Source: Armatimonadetes bacterium Uphvl-Ar2
GTDB taxonomy: Bacteria; Armatimonadota; Fimbriimonadia; Fimbriimonadales; Fimbriimonadaceae
Reading direction: 5' to 3'
Length of the DNA: 64,000 nucleotides
NCBI GenBank assembly: GCA_002162095.1
Contig: CP021424.1
Location: 2,418,001-2,482,000, forward strand
The notes beneath the pieces were generated by a model. That model had not been told where the DNA came from, did no database searches, and saw nothing but the letters and a program-made list of their open reading frames with translations. The position numbers were made by a program, and so were the translations under genes. This document shows positions 45,744 to 51,483 of this stretch, piece after piece (position 1 is the first letter of the stretch; every line of letters begins with the position of its first letter).

Positions 45744-47186
45744 ATGGAACGAACCCGCGAAAGCATCAGCGTCTTTGACATCTTCAAGATTGGGGTGGGG
45801 CCCAGCAGCAGCCACACCATGGGGCCGTGGCGGGCCGCCCAACGCTTTCTAAACCGCGCCCGTCGGGATGGCTGGTTCGATCGGATTCAGTCCGTCCATG
45901 TGGACCTCTTTGGCAGCCTGGCCAAGACGGGCCGGGGCCACGGCACCGACATCGCCGTGATGCTGGGCTTGATGGATGCCGACGTGGAGGCCATAGACAC
46001 CACCACCATCCCGGGCATCATCAGCGAGATCAAGTCGAAGCAGGTGCTGCGCGTGGGGGGCACCCGCGAAGTGCCGTTCACACCGATGACGCACATCGGG
46101 TTCCACGTCACCAAGACGCACCCTGGCCACCCCAATGCGCTCACGTTCCGGGCGCAGCTGGAGGGCGGGGAAGAGATGCAGGGCACCTTCTTCAGCGTGG
46201 GCGGCGGCTTTGTGGTGAGCGAAGAGCAGGATGAACCCATCGCGCGCCAGCAGGTGCAGTTGCCGTTCCCGATTGAACTCGCCGCCGATGCGCTGCGTTA
46301 CTGCGAGGAGAAGGGCACCAACCTGCCCACCCTGGTGATGCAGAACGAACTGGCCTGGCGCACCATGCCCGAAATCCGCGAGCGCCTGCGCCGTATTGCC
46401 GGCACCATGTTCGAGTGCGTGTGGCGGGGGGCGCACACTGAGGGCATCCTGCCCGGCGGGCTGAACGTCAAGCGACGCGCCGCCGCCATGAACCAAGCCC
46501 TGGTGCCCGGCGGGCCGACGGATTACGACGGCTGGCTGGCCGCCCTGCGCAGCATCGGCACGGGGTTCTCGGAGAACCTGCAGGCCGTCTCCATGTTTGC
46601 GCTGGCGGTGAACGAGGAGAACGCCGCCTTCGGCCGGGTGGTGACGGCCCCCACCAACGGCGCGGCGGGGGTTATCCCGGCGGTGCTGCTGTATATGTTT
46701 GCGGTGATGGAGCCGGAACCCGCCGACCCGTGGCGGGCGTGCGAGGAGTTCCTGCTGGTGGCGGGCGAGGTGGGGTCGCTGTTCAAGAAGGGCGCGACGA
46801 TCTCGGCGGCGATGGGCGGGTGTCAGGCCGAAATTGGCGTGAGCAGCGCCATGGCGGCGGCGGGGCTGGCCCACGTCCGCGGGGCCACGGCGGCGCAGTG
46901 CATGATGGCGGCGGAGATCGCCATGGAACACCACCTGGGCATGACCTGCGACCCCATTGGGGGGCTGGTGCAGGTGCCGTGCATCGAGCGGAACACCATG
47001 GGGGCGATCAAGGCGATCAATGCGGCCGAGATTGCGATCATCAGCGACCCGGCGGCGGCGCGGGTGAGCCTGGACGACGTGATTTCGACCATGTGGCAGA
47101 CCGCGCTGGACATGAGCGAGAAATACAAGGAGACCAGCGAGGGCGGGCTGGCGGTGCGGATTCCGGTGATTGTTCCGGAGTGTTAG
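45744..47186 (+). CDS. sdaA: L-serine ammonia-lyase, iron-sulfur type
   Basis: 480 residues, single-chain bacterial serine dehydratase converting L-serine to pyruvate and ammonia. The N-terminal regulatory half begins [26 protein letters not shown]; the catalytic half has [14 protein letters not shown] and cluster cysteines in MGGCQAEIG and MTCDPIGG followed by [19 protein letters not shown] lies about 12 bases upstream. Co-transcribed with the preceding aminotransferase. Oxygen-sensitive 4Fe-4S chemistry is known for the family. Confidence 0.96.
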
Positions 47187-47227
47187 AAAAATAGTTGCAA
47201 ATGAAACTAAATTTTTTTCGTAAAAGG

Positions 47228-47258
47228 TTGCTTTTTTTTTTTTTTTCCGTGTTACAAT
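47228..47258 (+). promoter_or_regulatory. Promoter with a 15-T homopolymer in the spacer
   Basis: A -35-like TTGCTT (47228-47233) and a -10 TACAAT (47253-47258) are separated by 19 bases, most of them part of a T15 run at 47232-47246. The -10 ends 6 bases before the ATG at 47265. Loss of two Ts would give the optimal 17-bp spacing, so repeat slippage could switch expression. Confidence 0.5.
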
Positions 47259-47264
47259 GCAGTC

Positions 47265-47801
47265 ATGAGGACAGAGACCGAGGCGAGGAGAGTTCGGTTG
47301 TCAGGGGCTCGAACTTACTCAAAAGGGGCATGGCTAACGTGTGCCGTCCTTGCGCTGGCCGGGGTGGGCTTCGCCTACCGACAAGCACCCCATCAGTTCG
47401 CCTTCGCCCCAAACAAGTCCGAAGCGGTTTGTGCAGTACCGAACACGGGGCAGAATCCTCAGGTATCGGCTCACAAAGTACTTGAAGTTGGAGACCAAGC
47501 GTTCACTAGTGAGGTCTCCGGATTGGTCCTGGTGCTTCCCTCGTGTGACACTTGTGGCAAAGCGCCGCTTTACCTGAATGCCATGAAGAATCTGAAGTTG
47601 CATGGGAAGACCAGTGTCTATATTCAAGATTTTGCCATGGCAAAGGATAAGATCGAGGGGTTTAAAGGGCAGATTCAAAGCGAAAACGATGTCGTCTACG
47701 GAGCAGGGCTATTCTTAGTGGATTCCGGTCGCATTACAAAGATTGAACGAAGCCCGGTTTTCTTTTCTGAATTCGCGCTTTCTATTGGTGAGACAGATTG
47801 A
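47265..47801 (+). CDS. Membrane-anchored thioredoxin-like protein (CxxC), accessory cluster
   Basis: 178 residues. One hydrophobic helix (about 22-38, AWLTCAVLALAGVGFAY) is followed by a soluble domain. LVLVLPSCDTCGK places a CxxC pair (C94, C97) at the end of a beta strand, as in TlpA/MauD-like thioredoxin folds; further strands (KTSVYIQDFAM, VVYGAGLFLVD) fit, though the usual cis-proline is not obvious. Probably acts outside the cytoplasmic membrane on disulfides. Sampled lines of this cluster have about half G+C, clearly below the sdaA side. Followed directly by the prepilin gene. Confidence 0.55.
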   Translation: MRTETEARRVRLSGARTYSKGAWLTCAVLALAGVGFAYRQAPHQFAFAPNKSEAVCAVPNTGQNPQVSAHKVLEVGDQAFTSEVSGLVLVLPSCDTCGKAPLYLNAMKNLKLHGKTSVYIQDFAMAKDKIEGFKGQIQSENDVVYGAGLFLVDSGRITKIERSPVFFSEFALSIGETD

Positions 47802-47802
47802 T

Positions 47803-48366
47803 ATGAAACGTCACGCTTTTACACTAGTAGAGGTGCTGGTCGTGCTTGCGATTCTTGCGATTGTGGCTACTTTGCTTTTCCCCGTTTATAGCTCATCTAA
47901 GAATGCAGCCGGGAAAGTTGTTTCGTATTCAAAATTGAAGCAGTCACATCTTGGACTGTTGCTTTATCGTGAGGACAATGGTGGTGACAACGGCCACTAT
48001 GGCAAGCCTAGTCTGATGAACCTTCCTTACGATCATTGGGTTTTTACAGACCAGGGTCAATACGGCGTCGACTGGAAGTTGCGGAGCCCGGGAGGATGCC
48101 CGCCATGGGAAGCAGAGCGAAAGGTGACAGATTTCATTTTCTCGAACCTAACAGATGATAGTGATTGGGCCACGGACGCAATACTGTACGAAGAACTTGT
48201 AGTTGTATTTGGTGACATAAGTTGCAATCCTCGAAAGGACTTCCTGGCAACCGCACCTCGGCGTACAAAAACATCCACCGCAGTACTTCTGTCTGGGCAG
48301 ATTGCCACGCGAACAGGAAGAGGAGACTTTTCGCGTTCAGGATTTTATAGCGGTCCATCCCGCTAG
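47803..48366 (+). CDS. Type IV prepilin-like (pseudopilin) protein
   Basis: 187 residues. The class III signal is short and ideal: MKRHA then FTLVEVLVVLAILAIVATLLF, with glutamate at position 5 of the mature protein, so it is a substrate for the prepilin peptidase. The C-terminal domain is small and polar (DNGGDNGHYGKP, WEAERKVTDFIF, ATAPRRTKTST), with cysteines at CPPWE and CNPRK. ATG 47803 is one base past the preceding stop; an upstream in-frame extension would break the class III signal. Low G+C like its neighbours. Confidence 0.8.
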   Translation: MKRHAFTLVEVLVVLAILAIVATLLFPVYSSSKNAAGKVVSYSKLKQSHLGLLLYREDNGGDNGHYGKPSLMNLPYDHWVFTDQGQYGVDWKLRSPGGCPPWEAERKVTDFIFSNLTDDSDWATDAILYEELVVVFGDISCNPRKDFLATAPRRTKTSTAVLLSGQIATRTGRGDFSRSGFYSGPSR

Positions 48367-48420
48367 TTTTCATAGCTTTGCTTTTCCAATTCCAATGATA
48401 AATGGAGGTTACATAACTAG

Positions 48421-48741
48421 ATGAAACACATACTGAAGTCATCTCTCGTCACTATTGCAGTCGCTGCAACGCTCTCCGCGTCATCACAACCAGGTGGTGG
48501 GTCCACAACGATTTGCTACGACGCATGCACTACTGAAAGCCCCTGCGCAACTGGGAATGCCAGGGAGCGAGGTAGGATCTACTGCAAGTCGCTTGACGTC
48601 GTCACACATTGCATCGAGTACGAGATGGTGACCTATAATTGTAAACGTGGTGGTCCAGGAGATGGCACTATAGGACGCCAGTTGGAGGAAGACGTTCGCC
48701 CTGCTGACAGCTGCGATGGATCGAACTATCGCTGCCATTAA
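48421..48741 (+). CDS. Small cysteine-rich secreted protein
   Basis: 106 residues, signal peptide about 1-22 (LVTIAVAATLSASS). The mature chain has eight cysteines (ICYDAC, SPC, IYCK, HCIEY, NCKRGG, DSCDG, YRCH), suggesting four disulfides. The even cysteine number plus a neighbouring CxxC thioredoxin-like gene fits a disulfide-stabilised exported peptide. No family recognised. TGGAGGT lies 12 bases before the ATG. AT-rich composition as in its neighbours. Overlaps the next gene by 26 bases. Confidence 0.6.
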   Translation: MKHILKSSLVTIAVAATLSASSQPGGGSTTICYDACTTESPCATGNARERGRIYCKSLDVVTHCIEYEMVTYNCKRGGPGDGTIGRQLEEDVRPADSCDGSNYRCH

Positions 48742-49363
48742 CCACTGGCCTATTGCAGCCGTCTGCGCAATGGTTTTTTTGGCCAGCGGCTGCAAAAGTG
48801 CAGAGGACCCGCGGTCCTCTGCACGCCAAAGGCTTATTGGCTGCATGACAAGGCAGGATTTACGATGTATCGTTGAGTTAACGCCGATTGAAGAACGCGA
48901 GGCAGTTGGCCTCAAAGATCCTGCACTTGCAGAGGCGTTCATTAAGTATGCGTTTGGCGAACTTAATCTGGATATGCAGGCAGTACCTGAAACTGAAGGC
49001 GTAGCAGTAAGTGAGTATCTTATCGGATATCCCTATAGTACGACATCAACACCTCGTGGTGTGTTTCGGATATATGTAAGTGGGACGGACGAGGGTGCTT
49101 TAGTTTCTGACTTCTATAGCTTGTTAATCCTCACTCTGGCGACGGATATCGGTATTCGGCGTGGCTTTGGTACTTCAGGGCCGGCCAAGTTCAGAGGCTG
49201 GGCTGATTTCTTCCAAAGGGAAGGGCCAATTCTTGAGTCCAAATTTGGGATGAAGGGCACATATGAATTACGCAACAGAGCATTCCGAAGTTGGGCTGAG
49301 TTGGAAGCTGACATGAAGCGAAGAGCTGACCGAGCCGAAGGATTAGCCACACCAGCGCGGTGA
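48716..49363 (+). CDS. Putative lipoprotein of unknown function, accessory cluster
   Basis: 215 residues with a lipobox (VFLASGC, C26) after a hydrophobic stretch. The mature domain is alpha/beta with IGCMTRQDLRCIVELTPIEE at its start (two cysteines) and no recognised family. ATG 48716 overlaps the end of the Cys-rich gene; a later ATG at 48770 (MVFLASGC) would leave too short a signal. Last gene of the low-G+C cluster, ending just before the convergent glyA. Confidence 0.6.
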   Translation: MDRTIAAINHWPIAAVCAMVFLASGCKSAEDPRSSARQRLIGCMTRQDLRCIVELTPIEEREAVGLKDPALAEAFIKYAFGELNLDMQAVPETEGVAVSEYLIGYPYSTTSTPRGVFRIYVSGTDEGALVSDFYSLLILTLATDIGIRRGFGTSGPAKFRGWADFFQREGPILESKFGMKGTYELRNRAFRSWAELEADMKRRADRAEGLATPAR

Positions 49364-49366
49364 CAG

Positions 49367-49402
49367 AAAAGTTCCTTCCACGATCCGGCCTACGCCAGGT
49401 CG
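49367..49402. terminator. Possible bidirectional terminator between the accessory cluster and glyA
   Basis: An inverted repeat CCACGA/TCGTGG overlaps the last codons of glyA. On the minus strand the hairpin is followed by AAGGAACTTTT, a weak T-run. Confidence 0.4.
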
Positions 49403-50661
49403 TGGAGGGGGAAGCGTTGCGTCACGGCGGCCACTTCGGCGCGCACGGCGGCCTGCACCGCCTCATCCTGCGGCGCGCGTAGCACCCGCGCCATCCAGCC
49501 CGCAATCAGCTTCATCTCGGCTTCGCCCAGGCCCCGGGTGGTCACGGCGGGGGTCCCCAGCCGCAGCCCGCTCGTCACAAACGGCTTTTCGGGGTCGTTC
49601 GGAATCGCGTTCTTGTTCGTCGTCATGTGCGCGGCTTCCAGCACGTCCTGCGCCACCTTGCCCGTCACCCCAAAGGGTCGCAGGTCCACCAGCATCAGGT
49701 GGCTATCGGTGCCGCCGCTCACAATGCGGAATCCCTCGGCCGTCAGCGCCGCCGCCAGGGCCTGCGCGTTCGCCTTCACCATGCGGGCGTAGTCATTAAA
49801 TTCGGGGCGCAGCGCCTCGCCGAAGGCCACCGCCTTCGCCGCAATCACGTGCATCAGCGGGCCGCCCTGCAGGCCGGGGAACACCGTCTTGTTGATCTTG
49901 GTCACGTAGTCCGCATCGCCGATGATCATGCCGCCGCGCGGCCCCCGGATGCTCTTATGCGTGGTGCTGGTGACCACCTGCGCGTGCCCCACCGGCGAGG
50001 GGTACACGCCCCCGGCGATGAGCCCGCTGTAGTGCGACATATCGCACATGTGCAGGGCGTCCACCTCGTCGGCCACCCGGCGGATAAAGGCAAAATCGAA
50101 CTCGCGGCTGTAGGCGGTGGCCCCGCTCACAATCACGCGGGGGCGGCTTTCGTGGGCGATGCGGCGCAGTTCGTCGTAGTCAATCTGCTCGTCGCTGTCG
50201 CGCACGCCGTAGGCCGCCACGTTGTAAAGCTGGCCGCTGAAGTTGACGGTGGCCCCGTGTGTCAGGTGCCCGCCGTGGGCCAGGTTCATGGCCATCAGGG
50301 TGTCGCCGGGCTTCATAAAGGTGAAGTAGGCGGCCATGTTGGCGCTGGCACCGCTGTGGGGCTGCACGTTGGCGGCTTCGGCGCCGTAGAGCTCACACAC
50401 CCGCTGGATGGCCAGGGTTTCCACCTCGTCGGCGTGGGCGCATCCGCCGTAATAGCGCTTGCCGGGGTAGCCCTCGGCGTATTTGTCGGTCAGCACGCTG
50501 CCCATGGCTTCGCGCACGGCGGCGCTGGAGTGGTTCTCGCTGGCGATGAGTTCCAGGTGGTCTTGCTGGCGCTTCACCTCGCGGTTGAGGATCGCGGCGA
50601 CGGTGGGGTCGCTTTCAGCAAGGGTCGTGCGGTGGTGGGCGGGCATCGCCGTCGAGGCCAT
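49390..50661 (-). CDS. glyA: Serine hydroxymethyltransferase
   Basis: Interconverts serine and glycine with transfer of a one-carbon unit to tetrahydrofolate. PLP lysine K236 in [14 protein letters not shown]; the N-terminal [25 protein letters not shown] and [14 protein letters not shown] are diagnostic. Length 423. Monocistronic with TAGAAT 6 bases before the ATG. Functionally adjacent to sdaA for serine/glycine turnover. Confidence 0.97.
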
Positions 50662-50693: not shown

Positions 50694-51470
50694 TCAGTCT
50701 TTGGTTGATGTTTTGAGAACCTGGTCGACAAGTTCTTCAATGCGATCAACCGTCAACTGTTGTGATACATCAAGACCTTGCTTCCCTCCAAACCACTCCG
50801 GTCTTGCGAGGATCAATTTCTGGAAGCAAGTGGACAAGCGTTGGTGTTCTAAATGCTCTGAGATAATTCTGCTGAGTTCTTCTGCTTCTTTGGTGCCTCG
50901 TTCTTGAACAGCATCAACGTACTTATCTAACTGATTTCTGACATCCTGCCATTGAGATTTCTTCTTTGTGGTCGATTGGTTGTCAGCTACTAAAACCAGA
51001 CAATCAGACGAATATTGAAGAGCAGCGTCGACCAGGAGACGACAGTTGGCCAGCAGATCTTGCCAGAGCTCTTGTTCCTTTGGGATGCGATCGAAGTCAA
51101 GGTGAGCGACCCGTTTGTCTCGCAAAATCTTAAGGTCCTTAAATGCGTCTTCAGTCTTTGAGTTAAAAGTTGGTTCAATATCAATGTGCACTAATCCGAA
51201 GAATGAACTAGTCAAACTTCTGAGCGAAAAGTGTTGCTGCTTATCGAAGAGTGATACGAGGTCAAGTATCTGCAATCTCAGCTCTGCCCGCCATAAAGAT
51301 GTGACGGTATATGAGCCTAGCTTCTCAAGCATGACTTGTCTCTCAAGAGTGGCCAGAACCAAGCCCAGCACACCTAGAACAGTCTCGAACTGCCTTTTGG
51401 ACACTTGATTTTGCTTTGCTTTATCACGTACAAGGCCGGGGAAGAAATCCTTTTCCGGATCGTTCCACAT
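50694..51470 (-). CDS. HEPN/AbiU2-like protein
   Basis: About 258 residues, mostly helical, no signal or membrane segment. A central RDKRVAHLDFDR segment fits the R-x5-H motif of HEPN-fold proteins (RNase or antiphage families such as AbiU2), and the surrounding long helices and ELWQDLLANCRLLVDAAL match that architecture; assignment is by pattern only. ATG 51470 is chosen because TAAATT ends 7 bases upstream; an upstream TTG (51479) lies on the -10 itself. A sampled line has about 52% G+C against higher values in glyA, suggesting later acquisition. A nucleotidyltransferase partner is not present. Confidence 0.55.
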   Translation of the reverse strand: MWNDPEKDFFPGLVRDKAKQNQVSKRQFETVLGVLGLVLATLERQVMLEKLGSYTVTSLWRAELRLQILDLVSLFDKQQHFSLRSLTSSFFGLVHIDIEPTFNSKTEDAFKDLKILRDKRVAHLDFDRIPKEQELWQDLLANCRLLVDAALQYSSDCLVLVADNQSTTKKKSQWQDVRNQLDKYVDAVQERGTKEAEELSRIISEHLEHQRLSTCFQKLILARPEWFGGKQGLDVSQQLTVDRIEELVDQVLKTSTKD

Positions 51471-51477
51471 AACTCTC

Positions 51478-51483
51478 AATTTA
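51478..51483 (-). promoter_or_regulatory. -10 element (TAAATT), leaderless start of HEPN-like gene
   Basis: TAAATT on the minus strand lies in the 20-base gap after the upstream PLP gene, 7 bases before ATG 51470. Confidence 0.5.

Follow-up and report, generated by a model that had tools for sequence, protein, structure and literature searches.

A dispersed four-gene cassette with a candidate slipped-strand switch and an exported Cys-rich peptide in Fimbriimonadaceae

Do the four small AT-rich genes packed between sdaA and the convergent glyA of a Fimbriimonadaceae genome form a system, and what could it do? An earlier note on the window, i.e., the whole 64-kb stretch of DNA that was analysed, had described a tight cluster of low G+C and proposed a pilus-like device for the export or display of a Cys-rich cargo that needs disulfide handling. 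Four same-strand ORFs indeed lie between sdaA (end at 47186) and glyA (49390-50661), and the G+C content of 47265-49363 is 49.5% as compared to 62.4% for the remaining window, a lower value being found in just one of 1237 windows of equal size. The note had placed the cluster at 47195-49363; its end is right, but the first gene, trx, starts with an ATG at 47265. Because pil starts 1 nt past the stop of trx and the cys and lip genes overlap by 26 nt, the four genes look likely to be one transcription unit. Directly after glyA lies a second AT-rich ORF (50694-51479, minus strand, 261 aa, about 45% G+C) with a weak Pfam HEPN_AbiU2 match below the cut-off (E 0.0018), and this stretch has no alignment to the corresponding site in the sister genome G001.

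The four gene products

The trx gene (47265-47801, plus strand) encodes a thioredoxin-like protein, assigned from profile matches and sequence reading, with an N-terminal transmembrane segment and a CDTC motif, as expected for the membrane-anchored CxxC protein described earlier. The profile of its family matched CcmG, ResA and DsbE in the PDB with E values from 9e-5 (best) to 1e-3, and the CxxC is near-invariant across the family, usually with Ser next to it; the family thus shows both the CxxC and the fold profile match by which the thioredoxin-fold superfamily (TlpA/ResA) is recognised. Against Pfam, the trx protein of the window gave no thioredoxin-family match, and Redoxin was matched by 7 of 40 family members (best E 1e-4). 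A Glyoxalase_5 match (E 0.004) was below the cut-off and was taken as chance. Like the TlpA-like oxidoreductases ResA, CcmG and DsbE, trx is a membrane-tethered thioredoxin fold with CxxC. It differs from them in that the typical motif of its family is CxxCS, in that it stays below the Pfam cut-offs, and in its gene neighbours, which encode a pilin and a Cys-rich peptide and have no part in cytochrome c maturation. Two variant cassettes (L168 and L176) have an extra small CGCxxC thioredoxin-like gene, and a gene for a multi-pass membrane protein separates trx from pil in L175 and L176; no lip was recognised in these variants.

The pil gene (47803-48366, plus strand) encodes a short type IV prepilin-like protein, in agreement with the predicted prepilin-peptidase substrate, and its N-methylation motif scored 33.2 bits with Pfam N_methyl (PF07963, cut-off 21.2) and exceeded the cut-off of NCBIfam TIGR02532. 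The N-methylation motif and hydrophobic helix are common to type IV pilins and type II secretion pseudopilins, from which pil differs by its own C-terminal domain and by the lack of the motif in some family members; the motif of the pil family is LYR.D..G..G....M.LP. PHROGs matches of the cassette proteins were weak and fell chiefly at the pilin N-terminus. None of the four cassette genes encodes an ATPase, platform or peptidase such as a type IV pilus or type II secretion operon would contain. Pilus and secretion machinery genes are located elsewhere in the genome, which encodes one prepilin peptidase, several PilB/PilT-type ATPases and a VKOR-type disulfide oxidase, so that processing and oxidation could take place although the cassette itself encodes no machinery. 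In three loci (L165, L167 and L172), the pilin-like protein has kept its membrane helix and an LQVYR-like domain without the N-methylation motif, and the peptide encoded next has at least 12 Cys. Since some pilin-like members have no such motif, pilus assembly is not required.

The product of cys (48421-48741, plus strand) has a signal peptide for Sec export and exactly eight Cys, matching the exported eight-Cys chain of the earlier reading. About 50 homologues identified by position have 6-13 Cys, mostly 8, 10 or 12, and the count is even in 44 of 50 peptides, which fits the expectation for disulfides. The peptide sequence and the number of Cys vary widely, and four columns (C36, C64, C98 and C105) are invariant in a 12-row alignment. 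The structure model of cys was poor (pLDDT 56) and was left out of the fold search. Neither cys nor lip has a convincing match to any curated family. The lip gene (48716-49363, plus strand) encodes a lipoprotein with the lipobox LASGC and two further Cys, as had been noted. Its AlphaFold2 model from a 20-row alignment (pLDDT 86, pTM 0.76) comprises an N-terminal domain and a helical C-terminal extension. Residues 31-148 resemble many NTF2-like folds at Z 4.9-5.9 (VIA-align), under the settling level of Z 8, and Foldseek gave no match at E 0.001 or better; an NTF2-like N-terminal domain is the predicted fold. Ketosteroid isomerase/SnoaL folds, the PBP2a N-terminal domain and DUF4783 are among the NTF2-like proteins resembled, from which lip differs by having no sequence match to them, by its helical extension and by a lipid or transmembrane anchor.

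A ResA/CcmG-like protein adjoining a Cys-rich exported protein could also mean that a Cys-rich subunit, of either an enzyme or an electron carrier in the periplasm, is matured here, much as MauD acts for the small subunit of methylamine dehydrogenase. We consider this very unlikely, because the cassette has no catalytic subunit, cofactor gene or enzyme, the peptides vary so widely in sequence and Cys number, and phase variation, for which the evidence is given below, would be unusual in metabolic genes.

Recurrence and divergence of the cassette

The earlier note recognised no described system with this gene set and proposed to look for the same gene order in other genomes; homologues that were always scattered, or thioredoxin-like and Cys-rich proteins that never co-occurred, were to speak against a system. 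The order trx-pil-cys-lip recurs across dozens of loci of Fimbriimonadaceae and other Armatimonadota, and the homologues are not scattered singly. The window genome has a second, diverged cassette of identical gene order 73 kb upstream (G000:C1:2392500-2394564), the two trx proteins being about 25% identical. Among 291 genomes of the phylum, 78 matched the lip profile, with up to eight matches per genome; matches beyond the order were weaker and mostly partial. The relatives fall in the Fimbriimonadaceae and Fimbriimonadales of the Armatimonadota, and a degenerate DNA pattern of the pilin motif gave 16 matches, of which 15 were in Armatimonadetes, Fimbriimonadaceae/-ales or Chthonomonas. Nearly all of the sequences compared are metagenome-assembled.

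Co-occurrence was counted in 69 lip loci that adjoin a family pilin, loci cut by contig ends being excluded. Both trx and cys were found in 40 of them, trx only in three, cys only in 13 and neither in 13, so a Cys-rich peptide is present in 40 of 43 cassettes with trx as compared to 13 of 26 without it (Fisher p = 7e-5). When checked, neither of the conditions named in the earlier note spoke against a system. Where cys is missing, the gap between pil and lip is usually about 80 nt or less; since pil and lip close up in this way, cys is a clean optional module that travels with trx, and a version consisting of pil and lip alone also exists. The main loci had been chosen through lip and the profiles were iterated on lip-centred loci, so 20 further loci were picked by the trx profile alone as a partial safeguard. 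In this sample a family pilin adjoins trx in 16 of 20, most loci have a Cys-rich peptide alongside and over half a recognisable lip; two of the other four (L165 and L167) have the pilin-like protein without the N-methylation motif and a 12-Cys peptide. Chance gene packing is ruled out by the order kept in many loci and by this independent sample.

Most loci have different flanking genes, so the cassette occupies dispersed sites. The second copy of the window genome shares its site, next to a gene for a GNAT acetyltransferase, with two species of another genus. In G002, which belongs to the same genus as the window genome, sdaA is present with no cassette adjoining. In one locus (L046, G026:C28:1-5700) three pil-cys-lip units stand in tandem, and G026 has eight lip matches in all.

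Cassettes diverge faster than their flanks. The nearest relative of the window genome, G001, matches it in the flanks at 92-97% DNA identity and 97-99.6% protein identity, whereas the cassette is unalignable apart from part of pil. At the same sdaA-glyA locus, G001 carries two pil genes and lip, with no trx and no cys (L044); the duplicated pil proteins are 71-74% and lip 40% identical to those of the window. In another sister pair, with flanks about 98.5-99.5% identical, identity is 57% for trx, 85% for pil, 81% for lip and 86% for cys. Gene-wide dN/dS in sister pairs is 0.04-0.33, i.e., no gene-wide positive selection was seen, and values in this range argue for preserved function at a locus whose turnover outpaces that of the adjoining DNA.

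These patterns bear on the main rival explanation, an antagonistic peptide system in which a bacteriocin-like toxin would be released to neighbours, with trx as its dedicated oxidase, lip as immunity protein and the pilin aiding export. A small Sec-exported disulfide-rich peptide tightly linked to an envelope-anchored partner would suit such a system, as would the many diverged copies per genome (the eight lip matches of G026) and the lip retained without cys in G001, like an orphan immunity gene. That pil stays alongside the orphan lip is not expected of it, and the peptides and lip of sister species are under purifying selection. There was also no PADLOC or PHROG match of note, which is weak evidence. 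On balance we regard a released toxin as unlikely. Known defence or phage genes were rejected as well: PADLOC models gave no match to the four proteins and four homologues, a library absence that is not proof, and the PHROGs matches were only weak.

Repeat tracts at the 5' end of trx

Two features lay beyond the earlier note: the recurrence of the cassette, including the second copy in the genome, and a phase-variation signature centred on a T15 tract at 47232-47246 (plus strand). This candidate slipped-strand switch is the sole homopolymer of nine or more within the 64 kb, and T/A runs of at least 14 occur just twice in the 2.63-Mb genome, each time directly before a cassette. Both poly-T tracts come after AAGGTTGC, despite the low identity of their trx proteins. 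The tract would form the 19-nt spacer of a promoter-like TTGCTT ... TACAAT (47228-47258, plus strand), which was read from the sequence and is absent from the list of a consensus promoter scan with spacers of 16-18 nt; T13 instead of T15 would make the spacer 17 nt. The TACAAT ends 6 nt ahead of the trx ATG, and a leaderless trx transcript would fit this arrangement.

Repeats were searched in the 600 nt 5' of the CxxC codons of 68 trx genes, with thresholds set once and untuned, and in 5' regions of the same size of 193 neighbouring genes as control. A simple-sequence repeat at the trx promoter or 5' coding end was found in 34 of 68 cassettes (one of them counted by a 12-nt unit alone) as compared to 4 of 193 neighbouring genes (p 2e-19); the other half of the cassettes has no repeat at the thresholds used. 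Repeats with a unit not divisible by three reach 0.93 per kb in the regions 5' of trx, as compared to 0.073 elsewhere within these loci (p 7e-23), and units of three showed no clear enrichment there. The tracts include T15, T14, C15, C12, TGx8.5 and CTx8, the pentamers GCTCTx7.4 and TCAGGx11.8, and the octamers GGAGCCCA and TGGACCAT, with GGAGCCCAx5 and TGGACCATx6.8. They lie between likely promoter elements in some cassettes and inside the coding start in others, the two classic repeat positions in phase-variable genes. One homologous site has C7 in one sister species and C15 in the other; tract length was seen to differ only between species. An unstable non-triplet repeat at the promoter or 5' coding end, by which a phase-variable (contingency) locus is recognised, is present.

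The repeats and the low G+C could merely mark poorly constrained DNA around a constitutive cassette. In 65 of 71 loci the cassette is richer in AT than its flanks, and repeats can accumulate in DNA under relaxed constraint. The repeats, however, also stand in G+C-rich contexts as C, G, pentamer or octamer tracts, they cluster at the 5' end of trx without clear enrichment of units of three, and the control 5' regions are nearly repeat-free, all of which makes a neutral origin improbable. A 16-bp operator-like palindrome, CCAGTATTTATACTGG or close to it, is found just upstream of several tracts, in the 5' regions of L050, L091, L134, L173, L178, L049, L088 and L112. At up to three mismatches it has 12 matches in 40 kb as compared to one in 521 kb, and it suggests a shared regulator of the cassettes, kept here only as a lead because the palindrome had itself been selected by eye in these data.

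Known switches offer close parallels to a phase-variable trx. Bordetella fim genes have poly-C promoters and Neisseria opa genes pentamer repeats, and in both the repeat stands, as here, at the promoter or 5' coding end of an envelope-protein gene. In Helicobacter pylori sabA, a promoter T-tract ranging from T5 to T28 was shown to tune transcription (PMC4081817); this too is a homopolymer at the promoter elements of an envelope-protein gene, of a length similar to T15. The cassettes differ from sabA, fim and opa in their genes and phylum, in that the repeat precedes an oxidoreductase, the first of a four-gene operon, and in that switching is deduced from the tracts.

A possible variable surface module

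We propose that the four genes constitute a single operon, which is one instance of a multi-copy cassette dispersed among Fimbriimonadaceae and their relatives in the Armatimonadota. Slipped-strand changes in the simple-sequence repeat, between promoter elements in the window genome and within the 5' coding sequence elsewhere, would switch or tune the expression of trx. When on, the Cys-rich peptide would be exported by Sec, its disulfides would be set by the membrane-tethered thioredoxin-fold protein, and it would be retained at the envelope with the prepilin-like protein, presumably processed by the general prepilin peptidase of the cell, and the NTF2-like lipoprotein. The most likely role would be a variable surface module for attachment or recognition. 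Gene families, order, co-occurrence, export signals, repeat enrichment, the NTF2-like prediction and a divergence faster than that of the flanks are established, and from these we infer the switching, the action of trx on the peptide, the display and a peptide target. The whole chain, in which a phase-variable, quickly diverging envelope cassette both oxidises a disulfide-rich peptide and displays it, is in our judgement somewhat probable, and our confidence in the conserved cassette and the repeat enrichment alone is far higher. The association of trx with Cys-rich peptides lends weight to the disulfide handling of the earlier proposal; the device itself would be a conjecture, with no secretion or pilus machinery in the cassette.

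As the earlier note had supposed, no such gene set is described in Pfam, NCBIfam, PHROGs, PADLOC or the literature searched, which is not proof that none exists, and a literature search covering both systems of this kind and phase variation among Armatimonadota found nothing relevant. The novelty would lie in the gene set; repeat-driven switching is a known principle. A more specific reading, to which we give tentative credence, is a surface system specific to the phylum and subject to phase variation, in which a dedicated trx would oxidise a hypervariable disulfide-rich peptide displayed on the pilin with the NTF2-fold lipoprotein, many alleles per genome making up a new kind of switchable surface ligand. 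The cassettes are the first candidate contingency loci for a poorly studied phylum, with a defined operon and a testable switch, and they add two families, Cys-rich peptides and NTF2-like anchors, for which the libraries gave no match. If the peptides are released, they would constitute a new class of effector, rich in disulfides and supplied with its own oxidase; if they are displayed, the cassette would be a new means of varying the bacterial surface.
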